IMG/VR virus record: IMGVR_UViG_3300037193_000497
Span: 1 to 40,374 of that record
From: a virus
DNA length: 40,374 nucleotides
Reading direction: 5' to 3' (one strand)
In this document: positions 2,792 through 38,884 of the stretch, piece by piece
Position numbering within the stretch: the stretch's first letter is position 1
How the letters are laid out: the number at the start of each line of letters is the position of its first letter
Made by a program: the position numbers and the translations under genes
Notes under the pieces: model-generated
Database searches by the model: none
Told to the model about the DNA's origin: nothing
Seen by the model: only the letters and a program-made list of their open reading frames with translations

Positions 2792-3085
2792 TTAAGCCTG
2801 CCCTGTGGTGATGAATCTTGTGAAGTATTGATCTTCGTTAATTTTCAAGATCTCCATTGTATCTTTTTTAGTCGCCTCAGAGATACCGTTGAATTTCTTT
2901 GCGAGGAACATTTGATCTTTTACTTTCTTCTCTCCGTACGCACCGAAAAGGTTAATAACACACTCTGAACCGTAAGTCTTAGAGCCTACCTGAAACACGT
3001 TCTTAATCTCCCGTCCGCAGCAAGCGCAAGTATATTCGTAACCGGCTACGTTTCTAAGTTTGGTGATTTCGATTTTCTGTGTCAT
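2792..3085 (-). CDS. IS passenger protein with zinc-binding cysteines
   Basis: Protein of 97 aa, first gene of the IS operon. YTCACCGREI at about residue 18 and TYGSEC at about residue 37 supply three or four cysteines suited to a zinc site. The rest is Lys-rich and helical. No catalytic motif is visible, so a DNA- or RNA-binding role is only a guess. It lies about 27 nt downstream of a good promoter inside the element. Confidence 0.6.
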   Translation of the reverse strand: MTQKIEITKLRNVAGYEYTCACCGREIKNVFQVGSKTYGSECVINLFGAYGEKKVKDQMFLAKKFNGISEATKKDTMEILKINEDQYFTRFITTGQA

Positions 3086-3108
3086 TGTCGTATTGTTTAA
3101 TTATGATA

Positions 3109-3139
3109 TAAAGATAATCCATTTGGATTTACCGCGCAA
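3109..3139 (-). promoter_or_regulatory. Promoter of the IS operon
   Basis: On the minus strand a TTG is followed by 20 nt and then TATCTTTA, a one-base mismatch to the Bacteroidota -7 element TAnnTTTG. It sits just upstream of the first passenger gene and within the element. Confidence 0.65.
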
Positions 3140-3595: not shown

Positions 3596-4057
3596 TCAAA
3601 AGTAAATCAATAACGCTATTGCAAACACAATTAAGCGGATAGCAAATCTCCAATTAGGGCCTATCCGATGCCAGAATTTTATCTGCTCTGATCGCGAGGT
3701 CTTGCCCTCGTACGTGAACCAATTGGAACCGGGTTTTATTACTCCATTCCTTTCAAGCTTGTAAGTTACAAAGTAGCTGAAGGTAAGGAAGTGGATTGCA
3801 AATGACATGAATATCGCAGAGGCTATACTCGATATTGACAAATCAGAAGGATGAACATTAAAATACCTAATAACTGTTGCCAGCCAGCCAAACAACAAGA
3901 AACCGAATATCCTGAGATAAATGTCAAAGCCCCTGAAGCCTTTCTCTTTGAGTGATTCACCGCTTCTGTCGTTTCGGCTTTCGATGATCACCGGCAAGCA
4001 AAGAACAAAGAAGGCCACTACCGCAGCTATTAAGGAATAAATAGGGTTAAAATGCAT
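3596..4057 (-). CDS. Four-segment membrane protein
   Basis: Protein of 153 aa with hydrophobic segments near residues 6-24, 48-66, 76-98 and 134-152, separated by basic loops. It is therefore predicted to be an integral inner-membrane protein. It is not obviously a holin, since it is longer and lies far from the amidase. It sits in the small-gene operon downstream of a 51-aa gene. No family recognised. Confidence 0.65.
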   Translation of the reverse strand: MHFNPIYSLIAAVVAFFVLCLPVIIESRNDRSGESLKEKGFRGFDIYLRIFGFLLFGWLATVIRYFNVHPSDLSISSIASAIFMSFAIHFLTFSYFVTYKLERNGVIKPGSNWFTYEGKTSRSEQIKFWHRIGPNWRFAIRLIVFAIALLIYF

Positions 4058-4074
4058 TGAATTTCAGTTAGTTA

Positions 4075-4230
4075 TTACCATTTAAAGCGTTCGATATACT
4101 TTGCTATGGCGATCATCAAAGCATACTTTTCGGAATTATAGATTATTACATCATGGTCAACATAAGTTTCTGTTTCTTGCTTGATCAACTCTAGTAAACG
4201 TTCAAGCTCTTTAATGTCTTCTTGTGTCAT
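4075..4230 (-). CDS. Small hypothetical protein, 51 aa
   Basis: A short helical, acidic protein beginning MTQEDIKELERLLELIKQET and ending in ERFKW. Its start overlaps the stop of the preceding 56-aa gene as ATGA. It fills an otherwise empty interval in the operon, which supports it being real. Confidence 0.55.
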   Translation of the reverse strand: MTQEDIKELERLLELIKQETETYVDHDVIIYNSEKYALMIAIAKYIERFKW

Positions 4231-4397
4231 ATCCTTCCCTTTTTCTTCTTGAAATCAACTATCTTCCATATCCATGTTCCCACGGCGACAGCGTTGAAGA
4301 TCCAGCCTAATATGTCCCAGTCGGTACCTATGATAATGGCTGTGCCTATGAAGATAAGCAATCCGGTAGCAAGTGAGGTTGGTAATATCTGCTTCAT
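4227..4397 (-). CDS. Small membrane protein, 56 aa
   Basis: Two hydrophobic stretches (LATGLLIFIGTAIII and LGWIFNAVAVGTWIW) are followed by a basic tail DFKKKKGRI, so it is probably a two-pass membrane peptide with the tail in the cytoplasm. ATGA overlaps join it to the genes on both sides. The size and topology would also suit a small holin-like or superinfection-exclusion peptide; neither can be shown. Confidence 0.6.
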   Translation of the reverse strand: MKQILPTSLATGLLIFIGTAIIIGTDWDILGWIFNAVAVGTWIWKIVDFKKKKGRI

Positions 4398-4708
4398 GAT
4401 TGACTGACTTTAAACTTTTCTCCTAACACAACTTCATGCGCAAATCTGACAATCGAAATCAATTGAGAATCATGGATCGTTGTGAAGTATTGGCTGTTGT
4501 AAACTGTATACTGCACCTTGTACATGCGCCTGCACTTAGTGTCGCCACTTACCTCACCGAATCCGAATATAGATTCGCCTTTAACCGATCCTGTTATCTC
4601 CGTAAAAGCGTCTACCACTACCCCTTCTTCTTCTTCAGCCTTGTTGTAGTCTCTAAATCCGTGTGCACCTGTGGGATAATACCGAAATTTAATTGTGTTG
4701 CCGATCAT
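4394..4708 (-). CDS. Hypothetical protein, 104 aa
   Basis: A soluble, beta-rich protein with an acidic run (EEEE at about 26) and Gly-Phe-rich centre (SIFGFGEVSG). The N-terminal half, TIKFRYYPTG and GVVVDAFTEI, looks like a small beta-barrel. No cysteine pair except a single Cys. I do not recognise the family. It is coupled to the 56-aa membrane protein by ATGA. Confidence 0.6.
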   Translation of the reverse strand: MIGNTIKFRYYPTGAHGFRDYNKAEEEEGVVVDAFTEITGSVKGESIFGFGEVSGDTKCRRMYKVQYTVYNSQYFTTIHDSQLISIVRFAHEVVLGEKFKVSQS

Positions 4709-4727
4709 ATTGTTTGTGTTGGTGTTG

Positions 4728-4901
4728 TCATGCGTCTCCGTTCATTGTGTCTGCAAAATAGTCTGTCCACTCTTCGAGTAGTTCAGCGCGGTCATCATCA
4801 TTTAATGCTTTCGCTCTAGCGTTGTCAATTGCTGTTATGACTCTGTTCGCAAACTCAGCAGCCATTTGCCAATTCTTTTCTCTTCGCTCCTGTTCTGTCA
4901 T
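4728..4901 (-). CDS. Small hypothetical protein, 57 aa
   Basis: Helical, acidic protein beginning MTEQERREKNWQMAAEFANR and ending DYFADTMNGDA. Its ATG overlaps the stop of the NinG-like gene, so it is probably translated by coupling from that gene. No known domain. Confidence 0.6.
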   Translation of the reverse strand: MTEQERREKNWQMAAEFANRVITAIDNARAKALNDDDRAELLEEWTDYFADTMNGDA

Positions 4902-5308
4902 AGCCCCTTTTTACGTCTCAGTTCCTTTACTTTATCGGTGAACTCCTGTAGCTTTTCTTCAAGCTCAGGACGGGTGAATTTCTCCATTGAGTGAGCTTTT
5001 AAATTGAGATCCACTAACGCTTTCTTTTTCATGGTCAAGCCCCAGCGTTGAATATGTTCGTAATGATTAAAACGATTACAGTCTTGACAGGCCGGAGCGA
5101 GATTTGGAAGATAGAAACGCGTTGCCATATTTGCTCTGTCTTTGAAATGAGCACAATCGCTATCGGCCCACCAAAGTCTTTCAGAGCAAGAAACGCATTT
5201 AACTGTACCTCTATCGTCAGCAGCATTCAGCCTCACGTAAAGCGAAACCTGTTCGTCAACCTTCTTTATCAGGGCTCCTAACTTTTCAACTTTGATTGCC
5301 GTTCTCAT
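4898..5308 (-). CDS. ninG: NinG/Rap-like recombination nuclease
   Basis: Protein of 136 aa resembling lambda NinG (Rap), a structure-specific nuclease that resolves branched recombination intermediates. Visible landmarks are CVSCSERLWW at about 38, DCAHFKDRANMATRF at about 51 containing the conserved His, and CQDCNRFNHYEH at about 74, so that the paired CxxC elements frame an HNH-like core. The C-terminal 50 residues are a basic helix. The family places it in phage recombination and replication, although here it sits among small minus-strand genes and not with a recognisable recombinase. Confidence 0.85.
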   Translation of the reverse strand: MRTAIKVEKLGALIKKVDEQVSLYVRLNAADDRGTVKCVSCSERLWWADSDCAHFKDRANMATRFYLPNLAPACQDCNRFNHYEHIQRWGLTMKKKALVDLNLKAHSMEKFTRPELEEKLQEFTDKVKELRRKKGL

Positions 5309-12485: not shown

Positions 12486-12616
12486 TGGTTATCGATATGA
12501 AAGCGAAATGTAAATCGGGTAATCACAATTATCAGATTCAGCCAAAATCAGGATGCAAAAACGGCGTTCCTCTTTGGAAATGTAATCGATGTGGTAACAA
12601 AGTCTATTCAATGTAA
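12485..12616 (+). CDS. Small zinc-ribbon protein, 43 aa
   Basis: Cys at about residue 9, His at about 14 and CNRC near residue 33 form a probable zinc ribbon (KCKSGNHNYQ and WKCNRCGNKV). The start overlaps the stop of the previous gene as TAATG. Small zinc ribbons like this often bind nucleic acid or RNA polymerase, but there is no direct evidence here. Confidence 0.6.
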   Translation: MVIDMKAKCKSGNHNYQIQPKSGCKNGVPLWKCNRCGNKVYSM

Positions 12617-12617
12617 T

Positions 12618-13031
12618 ATGCAATGTTCTCGTTTTTCATCTGAATGTAAGCGCGGTTGTACAGGGGTCTGCCGTGCAAAGAATGTATACTGTCCATCGAA
12701 TGGAACTGAAGGCGCTGGATTCACTGAAGAGTACTGCATGAACTGTTTGCATTGTGATCCAGACCCGAACGGTAAAAAGCAATGTGAAATATTACTCGCG
12801 ACGATGTGCTTTTATCCGACCGAACCAGAATACCCTTTAGAATGGCATTACGATTCGACAGGTAATCCAAGGTGTTCAAGGTACGTGAATTGGGATTGGG
12901 GAACAAACGGTGATCCTGACGACCCTGATAATCCCAATAAACCACCTGATCCACCCGACCCACGACAGCTAAATCTTTTCCCACTGTACCACCCTGAGTT
13001 ACTCAACGAACTTCAACGACAAATCGCATGA
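12618..13031 (+). CDS. Cysteine-rich phage protein, 137 aa
   Basis: The first 90 residues contain about a dozen Cys, in groups such as CSRFSSECKRGCTGVC and CMNCLHC, which suggest several zinc sites. A Pro/Asp-rich linker (NGDPDDPDNPNKPPDPPDPR) and a helical end follow. The ATG at 12618 lies one base past the previous stop and is preferred to an upstream GTG inside that gene. No family name is known to me. Confidence 0.65.
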   Translation: MQCSRFSSECKRGCTGVCRAKNVYCPSNGTEGAGFTEEYCMNCLHCDPDPNGKKQCEILLATMCFYPTEPEYPLEWHYDSTGNPRCSRYVNWDWGTNGDPDDPDNPNKPPDPPDPRQLNLFPLYHPELLNELQRQIA

Positions 13032-13461: not shown

Positions 13462-13661
13462 TGCAGTGGGAAACCTGGAAGATCAACGGGGGCTTTATAC
13501 GGCCTTCCGTTGCTGAATTCACTCCGATCATAATCGATATGGAGACATTGCGGAAGTGTCGCGCAGGACTGAAGAAGAAGATCACAAAGGCAAAGGGGTC
13601 AAAAAAGGTGAGGCTCACGCTTATAAAGGAAGAAATAGATTTTTTGATTGACAACCTTTGA
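13458..13661 (+). CDS. Hypothetical protein, 67 aa
   Basis: A helical basic protein: SVAEFTPIIIDMETLRKCRA followed by LKKKITKAKGSKKVRL and a final helix. It is the last gene before the 700-bp non-coding stretch. Its ATGA overlap with the previous gene supports the start. Confidence 0.55.
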   Translation: MMQWETWKINGGFIRPSVAEFTPIIIDMETLRKCRAGLKKKITKAKGSKKVRLTLIKEEIDFLIDNL

Positions 13662-13679
13662 AAACTTTTTCTCTTACTA

Positions 13680-13739
13680 TTTGGGAAAAATGACCTCGTT
13701 AATTTACATTTGAAAATAGGTTCGCGTGCCTTATCTTTG
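13680..13739 (+). promoter_or_regulatory. Nested tandem Bacteroidota promoters
   Basis: Two exact consensus promoters share an element. P1 is TTTG at 13680, 21 nt, TACATTTG ending at 13712. P2 uses the last four bases of that -7 box (TTTG, 13709-13712) as its -33 element, then 19 nt, then TATCTTTG ending at 13739. No coding gene begins within 600 bp downstream, so the transcripts are expected to be non-coding RNAs, a tRNA-like RNA, or a long leader. Confidence 0.75.
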
Positions 13740-13744
13740 AAGCG

Positions 13745-13823
13745 AATCATAAAGATTTTAGGAACCCTTAGTGGATGGATCGGAAGTAAGGCACCGGTTG
13801 TTCGCTGAGGGTTTCTGCATTTT
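13745..13823 (+). ncRNA. Putative hairpin small RNA or leader
   Basis: Predicted transcript from the tandem promoters. AGGAACCCTTAG (13760-13771) pairs with CTGAGGGTTTCT (13805-13816) as a 12-bp stem with two wobble pairs, enclosing a second stem ATCGG/CCGGT. A short T-run follows at 13820. It could be a roughly 75-nt small RNA with a weak terminator, or the 5' leader of the tRNA-like transcript. No open frame is present. Confidence 0.45.
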
Positions 13824-13825
13824 AT

Positions 13826-13927
13826 GGCCCACTAGTTTAATGGTGAGAATACTTTACGATAGACGCGCAACTCGTCGCTAAAAACTAGTAGCGTATTGAG
13901 ATACAGGTTCGATCCCTGTGAGGGCTA
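13826..13927 (+). tRNA. tRNA-like sequence, unusual length, isotype unresolved
   Basis: The 3' half has a perfect T-arm (ACAGG-TTCGATC-CCTGT) directly followed by GAGGGCT, which pairs with GGCCCAC at the 5' end except for one A-A mismatch and one G-U pair. TAGTTTAATGGTGAG resembles a D-arm with its GG loop. At 102 nt it is longer than an ordinary tRNA. One fold gives an anticodon stem AATAC/GTATT with a 40-nt loop. Another gives a class II tRNA with anticodon AGA (Ser) and an extra arm CGCTA/TAGCG. CCA is not encoded. It may be a degenerate or interrupted tRNA. Confidence 0.5.
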
Positions 13928-13944
13928 CCCTATAAAAAACGTTT

Positions 13945-14131
13945 TGCAAGACTTGTTAAAGCGTGTTTGTAACAGAGACAAACGAAAAACAAGTTGCTTT
14001 TGGATTTAGCTACTACCCGATGGAAGTTAATGAGGGACTGTCGGGTACGATCAACGAAGACGAAAATTCCGGGCTCTGCCAACGCCGACAACCCGGCCGT
14101 GAAAATCTTTAACTCCCCAGTCTTCGATTGC
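13945..14131 (+). ncRNA. Strongly folded non-coding segment
   Basis: Four independent helices lie in under 190 nt. ACTTGTT (13951) pairs with AACAAGT (13988), enclosing GTTTGT/ACAAAC with a 7-nt loop. TACCCGA (14014) pairs with TCGGGTA (14041). CAACGAAGAC (14052) pairs with 14120-14130 through ten pairs and one bulge, enclosing CCGGG/CCCGG. Such dense nested pairing is typical of a structured RNA. No ATG-started gene covers it. I know of no RNA family that matches. Confidence 0.45.
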
Positions 14132-14360
14132 CGTTACGGGATGCGGATGCTTTCTATTGGCAGAGTAGATCAATCTGTTTAAACAAAGATCTATTAACCC
14201 AGAATTACAATACAAATATACTGATTAATATTCTTAATTGGGCTTTGTAGGGTATTTCACGGGAAAGGCGAGTCATGCCCATACATCAACTAAGGTCTTA
14301 GGTTGAAATAAATATCCGATTCCTGTAACAAATTACTAACACATAGTGTATAATTGTGGT
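14132..14360. other. Remainder of the non-coding stretch
   Basis: No supported gene. A hairpin TAGATC (14166) / GATCTA (14188) with a 16-nt loop is present, and the rest is AT-rich. I see no consensus promoter for the ribbon-helix-helix gene that follows, so that gene may depend on read-through from the tandem promoters at 13680-13739. Confidence 0.4.
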
Positions 14361-14534
14361 ATGAAAGAACACACAAACGTAAGAATCGATTCTGAACTTC
14401 TGAAATTATTGAGGGACGCCGCGAAGAAAGAAAGGCGATCATTTACAAATTACATTGAAGTTGTGCTTTGGGATCATGTGAATTCTGAAAGCCAGAAAGA
14501 ACCCGCTAAGAAATTAATTAAGATGGGAAGATGA
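14361..14534 (+). CDS. Ribbon-helix-helix DNA-binding protein, 57 aa
   Basis: HTNVRIDSELLKLLRDAAKK followed by ERRSFTNYIEVVLWDHV is a complete Arc/MetJ-type ribbon-helix-helix unit: a short strand (NVRID), helix A and helix B with an S-x-x-N-Y-I-E turn. Such proteins bind operators as dimers. The ATG at 14361 is used instead of a GTG 15 bases upstream, because it starts immediately before the strand. It is the first gene after the non-coding stretch and may regulate it. Confidence 0.8.
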   Translation: MKEHTNVRIDSELLKLLRDAAKKERRSFTNYIEVVLWDHVNSESQKEPAKKLIKMGR

Positions 14535-37553: not shown

Positions 37554-37763
37554 ATGGGTCATAAAATGTTTGATGCCTTTAGTCGGGCATTTGAAGAGAA
37601 AAAAAAAGGCGGCCTAAACAACATTGAAGCGTTCGACCGCGCAAAAGAAGAGTTTACCAAAAACTTCGAGTTCTCACCATACAAGGATGCGGAAAGTTTT
37701 ATAGCCACAAGAAGCTATCACCGCAGGGAGGAAAGAAACCTACTCAGAAGGCGTAAGCGTTAA
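37554..37763 (+). CDS. Isolated plus-strand protein, 69 aa (moron-like)
   Basis: MGHKMFDAFSRAFEEKKKGG then NNIEAFDRAKEEFTKNFEFS, a helical basic protein ending in RREERNLLRRRKR. It is the only plus-strand gene in the late block, has its own promoter, and is squeezed between the portal (divergent) and the amidotransferase (convergent, overlapping by 4 bp). This is how independently expressed accessory genes are placed in lambdoid-type phages. The ATG at 37554 is preferred over one at 37482 because the promoter lies between them. Function unknown; the Arg tail suggests nucleic-acid binding. Confidence 0.6.
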   Translation: MGHKMFDAFSRAFEEKKKGGLNNIEAFDRAKEEFTKNFEFSPYKDAESFIATRSYHRREERNLLRRRKR

Positions 37764-38884
37764 CAGCAATACTTCCGGTAAGCGGTCGCCGGGAAGATGC
37801 CAAACTTCATAAGAACCCAAAATACAGGTTTCCATGCCTTAAAGTTTGTCATTTTATAGTCACTGCGTGGACGTTTCGGGGAATACTCAACAAGCCTAAG
37901 TAGATGATCCTTACGATCACCGAGATCATTTAAATCAAATTCTGTTTCCTGTTGCAAAAATTCTTTTGCTGCTGTCTTGGAGAGTTTACCCTCGCGGATC
38001 TGAGCAGATAAATAAGTTTTGCGCTTGTCGATACCGAACTTTTTAGGCAGAACATACCCGCCAATGAAAGCCGTGTAAATGTTTTCGTTATGCTTCGCGC
38101 CGTAAGATTGCCATCCCCATTGTTTCAGAGTCTTCAAAATGCCGGTCCTATCGTAATCCTGGTAATGGTATGGACGGACTTGTTTAATTCCGATGATGCC
38201 TCCCCATATCTGATCCCACACTGTTAACAACGGATAGTTGAACAGGTCTTTACCGTTGAACTTTCTGTAGATTGAATTAAGATACGTGTAATCAATCACG
38301 CTCCATGCTTTCGGACTGCTGCCCTCTTCACGGAATGAGTGTCCATTCAAAATATATTTAATGCCGTGATCTTTTGCGGCCTTATACATGAGCTTTGACA
38401 TTACTACGTCGTTCGCGATATCGCAATCAGGAACACCTGCGCGTAGTAGTGAGTCGGTTAAATTATCGTACTCATGTTTATCAACGAAGTATTCAATGAA
38501 ATTAACGTTGAGCCGATCAACTAACACGCGAATGTTATTATTAGCTGACTCTCTATTGGTTCTGTTGTTGAAGTGAATAACCAACGGACGAAGGCCCCAA
38601 ACTTTAACAGCCATGTAAAGCATTACGCTCGAATCTTCCCCTCCGCTGATCCCAATAAGACAATCGTACTGCTTACCTTTGCCTTTCGATTTAATCTTGT
38701 CAAGTAATGGCGGCCACTTGTCCGGGTTGGCGTTGTTCCGTAGTTCGGTTTGTAGATGACACATCTCACATTCGCCATCATCATGAATCTTTACGAATGA
38801 ATCATCGAATAAACACGTGATGCATTCTATGGGGCCGTTTATTGCCTTAAAAATGTCTAATCCTTTTACGGTTGCTGTTTTCAT
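37760..38884 (-). CDS. N-acetyl sugar amidotransferase (WbpG/PseA-like)
   Basis: Protein of 374 aa. The N-terminus has a zinc knuckle (ECITC at about 19 and CEMC at about 38). The PP-loop ATP-binding motif is YDCLIGISGGEDSSVMLYMA at about 73, followed by a strand PLVIHFNNRTNRESANNNIR. These are the landmarks of the family that amidates N-acetylated sugars in O-antigen, pseudaminic- or legionaminic-acid pathways, using ammonia from a HisH-type partner. No such partner is visible here, so host ammonia or a host glutaminase would be needed. It is coupled to the glycosyltransferase-like gene upstream, which argues for a shared glycan pathway. Confidence 0.85.
   Translation of the reverse strand: MKTATVKGLDIFKAINGPIECITCLFDDSFVKIHDDGECEMCHLQTELRNNANPDKWPPLLDKIKSKGKGKQYDCLIGISGGEDSSVMLYMAVKVWGLRPLVIHFNNRTNRESANNNIRVLVDRLNVNFIEYFVDKHEYDNLTDSLLRAGVPDCDIANDVVMSKLMYKAAKDHGIKYILNGHSFREEGSSPKAWSVIDYTYLNSIYRKFNGKDLFNYPLLTVWDQIWGGIIGIKQVRPYHYQDYDRTGILKTLKQWGWQSYGAKHNENIYTAFIGGYVLPKKFGIDKRKTYLSAQIREGKLSKTAAKEFLQQETEFDLNDLGDRKDHLLRLVEYSPKRPRSDYKMTNFKAWKPVFWVLMKFGIFPATAYRKYCC

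Follow-up and report, generated by a model that had tools for sequence, protein, structure and literature searches.

A 684-nt gene-free stretch in the early operon of a tailed phage is tentatively interpreted here as encoding an orphan noncoding RNA of the phage, in which a 5′ domain of two kissing hairpins precedes a tRNA mimic. This interpretation has a computed basis, consisting of promoter matches, hairpin statistics, loop complementarity, and a tRNA family score.

Results

The window (the whole stretch of DNA analyzed, 40,374 bases) is a single IMG/VR record of a tailed phage. Portal, head, and tail genes were found on the minus strand, and small genes form a rightward block between about 7.4 and 17.8 kb. 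By protein similarity, the host is probably a member of the Bacteroidota; the protein encoded at 12591–13031 had INPHARED matches in 29 phages, all of Flavobacterium, and the nearest head proteins include one from Cellulophaga phage phi39:1. Elsewhere on the minus strand, the record carries an IS1595-family (ISXO2-like) transposase gene (1584–2516) and, adjoining the portal gene, a gene for a 374-aa protein (37760–38884; 61 to 75% identity in relatives) that matches PP-loop/ThiI weakly, just above the Pfam cutoff, and has no PHROG match.

The gene next downstream of the gene-free stretch, at 14346, encodes a ribbon-helix-helix protein resembling the Arc repressor. Within the stretch, a 62-aa frame (13994–14182) had no Pfam or PHROG family match, and a hidden or broken gene was rejected, as neither this frame nor a hand-made join of two frames matched either database. 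No intrinsic terminator was found between 13739 and 14346, a direct-repeat array of replication iterons was absent, and no integrase (considered in connection with an attP site) was present among the phage proteins searched.

The Bacteroidota promoter consensus comprises TTTG at −33 and TAnnTTTG at −7 (PMC2483708). Exact matches number 5 in 40 kb (1.6 expected), 2 of which overlap within the gene-free stretch (Table 1); a sigma-70 scan gave no excess of matches. From the upstream match, transcription is predicted to start near 13719, the first base of hairpin A. An earlier note on this DNA had placed a structured segment (13945–14131) downstream of consensus promoters; promoters do exist, but 200 nt upstream (13680–13739) and of the Bacteroidota type.

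Table 1. Coordinates of features in the window and in contig L011
Feature	Position	Strand	Details or basis
Gene-free stretch	13662–14345	+	684 nt, within rightward early operon; ORF list and family searches
Bacteroidota-type promoter	13680–13712	+	TTTG-N21-TACATTTG; exact consensus match
Second promoter match	13709–13739	+	TTTG-N19-TATCTTTG; overlaps first; exact consensus match
Hairpin A	13719–13748	+	7 pairs (13719–13725/13742–13748), 16-nt loop with GUGCCUUA; fold
Loop sequence GUGCCUUA	13726–13733	+	5′ half of proposed kissing interaction; complementarity
Hairpin B	13759–13817	+	20 unbroken pairs (13759–13778/13798–13817); fold
Loop sequence UAAGGCAC	13787–13794	+	3′ half of proposed kissing interaction; complementarity
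tRNA-like domain	13826–13927	+	Rfam RF00005, 35.2 bits (cutoff, 29)
Acceptor	13826–13832/13920–13926		One A.A mismatch, one G.U end pair
D arm	13835–13850		Loop UUUAAUGGU
Insert in place of 17-nt anticodon arm	13852–13898	+	47 nt (about 30 extra)
T arm	13903–13919		UUCGAUC
Discriminator	13927		A
Segment flagged earlier	13945–14131	+	Helices real, not significant; 3′ part of putative transcript; fold and stem counts
Helix	13950–13957/13988–13995		8 pairs; sequence
Helix	13964–13970/13978–13984		7 pairs; sequence
Helix	14014–14023/14038–14047		10 pairs including G-U; sequence
Helix	14052–14061/14120–14130		7 + 3 pairs, one bulge; encloses CCGGG/CCCGG stem
Inner stem	14069–14073/14092–14096		CCGGG/CCCGG; enclosed by preceding helix
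3′ block	14130–14265	+	Hairpins better than shuffled (z = −3.06); fold versus shuffles
Apparent permuted tRNA genes, L011	2789–2903, about 3015–3115, about 5160–5245		ARAGORN on doubled sequence

The stem of hairpin B (12 Watson-Crick and 8 G-U pairs) exceeds those of all 1,000 shuffles (maximum, 18) and of every other place in the 40-kb phage. The sequence GUGCCUUA in loop A is a perfect 8-nt complement of one in loop B (duplex, −10.7 kcal/mol), and two stem-loops with an 8-nt loop complement were reached in 9 of 2,000 shuffles. The fold of 13719–13822 had a z score of −4.48 (equaled by 0 of 200 shuffles), with weaker values for 13719–13930 (z = −2.92; 1 of 200 shuffles) and 13719–14265 (z = −2.34; 1 of 100 shuffles). 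Because the region had already been inspected when the statistics on promoters, hairpins, and kissing loops were calculated, these carry some selection, which touches least the tRNA family score and hairpin B, whose 20-pair stem has no equal in the phage.

The tRNA-like domain starts nine nt downstream of hairpin B (RF00005 E value, 1.5e-5 in 801 bases and 1.8e-7 for the record). It resembles tRNA in its acceptor, D arm with UUUAAUGGU loop, T arm with UUCGAUC, discriminator A, and score above the family cutoff but differs in having 47 nt rather than 17 in the anticodon region and no anticodon loop. A 5-bp anticodon stem with a seven-nt U33 loop is absent unless about 26 nt are removed; with introns allowed, ARAGORN returned only a forced tRNA-Thr(AGU) with a 26-nt intron (ATAGACGCGCAACTCGTCGCTAAAAA) and a mismatched stem. 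Both ARAGORN without introns and a fast-filter Rfam scan of the whole window missed the domain. In a folding model without tertiary terms, the cloverleaf scored −19.0 versus −27.0 for an alternative fold; because simple folding prefers the alternative, the cloverleaf assignment draws on family similarity and not on energy. The 102-nt domain alone (z = −1.43) folded no better than shuffles. A class II long variable arm was rejected, since 13869–13898 could fold in this way yet leaves no anticodon stem, and ARAGORN on the doubled sequence detected no permuted tRNA in 13600–14400.

The segment at 13945–14131 had drawn attention for four helices, without a gene, at a density deemed unlikely by chance. 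All four are real complementary stretches, and the segment has no recognizable gene (Pfam, PHROG). The density claim, however, failed the note’s own proposed comparison of folding energy with shuffles: on the plus strand, the segment gave −44.6 and its shuffles averaged −43.4 (z = −0.29; 71 of 200 shuffles folded equally well), on the minus strand the z score was −0.33 (dinucleotide shuffles, both strands), and each half had a z score of −0.82. Stems of ≥7 pairs with G-U allowed were average in number (10 versus 10.0 in shuffles), and Watson-Crick stems of ≥6 pairs were nominally enriched (8 versus 3.4; 2.4% of shuffles) in a count that includes mutually incompatible stems. The idea of a structured RNA in a gene-free segment is supported for 13719–13927 upstream, where the tRNA-like domain had been overlooked, but not for 13945–14131 itself. 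The loop of the CCGGG/CCCGG hairpin (14074–14082) and a downstream stretch (14157–14165) form a 9-nt perfect complement, a possible second pseudoknot of a kind expected by chance about once per 684 nt.

Homologues were sought by blastn with the whole region and with pieces of it, and none was found in INPHARED or PLSDB. Pattern scans of IMG/VR for the D arm and for extended tRNAs, and of prokaryote genomes, gave no homologue of the locus; all seven IMG/VR matches to the kissing-loop pattern were in unrelated sequence, those inspected resembling protein-coding DNA. Through neighboring proteins, one contig (L058) was found with one gene in common and without this region. Relatives identified via the portal and head proteins, mostly late-gene fragments, had neither the region nor a tRNA, and no tRNA was found in 26 searched related-phage records, most of them fragments. 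By these searches, the gene-free locus is an orphan, single-copy element without a homologue.

A stretched-anticodon tRNA pattern identified seven IMG/VR stretches. The domains at L008 7034–7147 (32.5 bits) and L011 3454–3572 (45 bits) belong to the tRNA family and have enlarged anticodon arms and well-paired acceptors. A stricter pattern for stretched tRNAs had 0 matches in 84,980 prokaryote genomes, which hints at a restriction of such domains to phages, with the proviso that the IMG/VR and genome patterns differ. In L008, a 56-kb phage contig, a long near-perfect hairpin replaces the anticodon arm.

In contig L011 (IMGVR_UViG_3300028797_002318), three or more tRNA genes also appear to be circularly permuted, with the 3′ half before the 5′ half. 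Their acceptors pair (e.g., GCCGTAG/CTGTGGC), each is flanked by inverted repeats (e.g., AAGTTACTT...AAGTAACTT and then ACTTACAA), and one scored 49 bits against Rfam YrlA (below the cutoff of 69). A literature search on permuted tRNA and phages gave no paper on such genes in a phage. The 38-nt anticodon-region insert of L011 3454–3572 shares a stem-plus-ACTTACAA motif with these genes. At about 3775–4970 of the same contig, tRNA-Leu-like halves lie about 1.1 kb apart with a NUMOD/HNH endonuclease between them (4275–4790), possibly a group I intron, although Rfam reported none. Unusually long tRNA-Ile(UAU) genes (about 95 to 101 nt) were seen in large phage contigs (L010 6364–6439, L013 7702–7777, and L014 10155–10224).

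Discussion

For the proposed noncoding RNA, we infer that it is transcribed, that RNase P and RNase Z process it, and that it serves as a decoy. From a start near 13719, the transcript would be cut by host RNase P near 13826 and by RNase Z near 13927. The products would be a kissing-hairpin RNA of about 107 nt from the 5′ end and a tRNA mimic of 102 nt, the latter stable, and 13945–14131 would form a 3′ trailer or linker of the transcript. As the mimic cannot decode, it would most likely act by occupying a tRNA-binding host factor, for which a processing or modifying enzyme and a tRNA-cutting defense nuclease are candidates; for want of an anticodon loop, the mimic would escape cleavage by such a nuclease.

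The strongest competing reading is that of a decayed tRNA gene, in which an insertion destroyed the anticodon arm and left a neutral relic, the hairpins being an unrelated leader or processing element. We rate it as unlikely, though a serious contender. The A.A mismatch and G.U pair of the acceptor, the lack of a usable anticodon, the lack of conservation evidence, and the absence of a tRNA from all 26 searched related-phage records (mostly fragments) fit decay, but the D arm, T arm, and most of the acceptor still reach 35 bits, and directly upstream lie a highly nonrandom 5′ domain and two strong promoter-like sequences. Useless DNA, moreover, is usually lost quickly from phage genomes.

Next in rank, and improbable in our estimation, is the view that the stretch serves the downstream operon (the gene at 14346 and further early genes) as a structured 5′ leader, transcribed from the promoter at 13680, with folds that control expression and the tRNA-like element as a processing site. 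There being no terminator between 13739 and 14346, the RNA could be a simple leader or be read through, and an Arc-like repressor as the next gene is consistent with this; however, a leader of 600 nt would be long, and the tRNA homology is left unexplained.

We give still less credence to a functional tRNA that contains an intron. Excision of 26 nt (ATAGACGCGCAACTCGTCGCTAAAAA) would yield a tRNA-Thr(AGU) with U33, as called by ARAGORN with introns allowed, and the L011 phage contig likewise has a tRNA with a 38-nt insert; against this, a U.U mismatch stays in the anticodon stem, and self-splicing needs far more than 26 nt. To our knowledge, the archaeal/eukaryal tRNA splicing endonuclease is absent from bacteria, and we know of no bacterial process that removes 26 nt from the anticodon region.

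GOLLD and ROOL are ornate phage noncoding RNAs of several hundred nt, located near tRNAs and assembling via kissing loops (PMC12286853). The locus is very unlikely to be a member or analogue of this group: it is similar in length, phage setting, adjoining tRNA, and loop-loop complementarity, but no Rfam covariance model of either was matched, even at an E value of 10 with lax filters, and its 3′ part is folded no more than by chance. That the whole is nothing but chance helices in a noncoding gap, true of 13945–14131, is scarcely credible for 13719–13927 given the upstream statistics and the tRNA family match.

Other known RNAs offer partial parallels to the proposed mimic. The bacterial Y RNA YrlA (RF02553) is a noncoding RNA with a tRNA-mimicking module, but its T arm precedes its D arm (permuted), whereas the phage domain has D and then T, and Rfam gave no YrlA match in the window. 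Transfer-messenger RNA also has tRNA-like ends around foreign sequence; unlike it, the phage domain contains a genuine D arm and just 30 extra nt and lacks internal pseudoknots. No Rfam match to tmRNA was obtained, and ARAGORN needed a lowered threshold to call any, marked “tag not identified.” The stable RNAs C and D of phage T4 derive from its tRNA gene region and are not themselves tRNAs; the likeness to the present locus, by description only, is that of phage-encoded stable non-tRNA RNAs.

A wider proposal, which we put forward as speculation more apt to be wrong than right by a good measure, is a new class of phage RNA that joins a kissing-hairpin domain to an anticodon-less mimic, is matured by the tRNA enzymes of the host, and shields the phage by titrating or resisting tRNA-targeting defenses, with similar mimics in L008 and L011.

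The element is unusual but single-copy, and no homologues of it were found. As ARAGORN and a fast whole-window Rfam scan both miss it, anticodon-less mimics may be underreported in phages. Should the element be expressed, it would offer a concrete, easily tested candidate for an RNA of Bacteroidota phages that interacts with the host tRNA machinery or with tRNA-targeting immunity.
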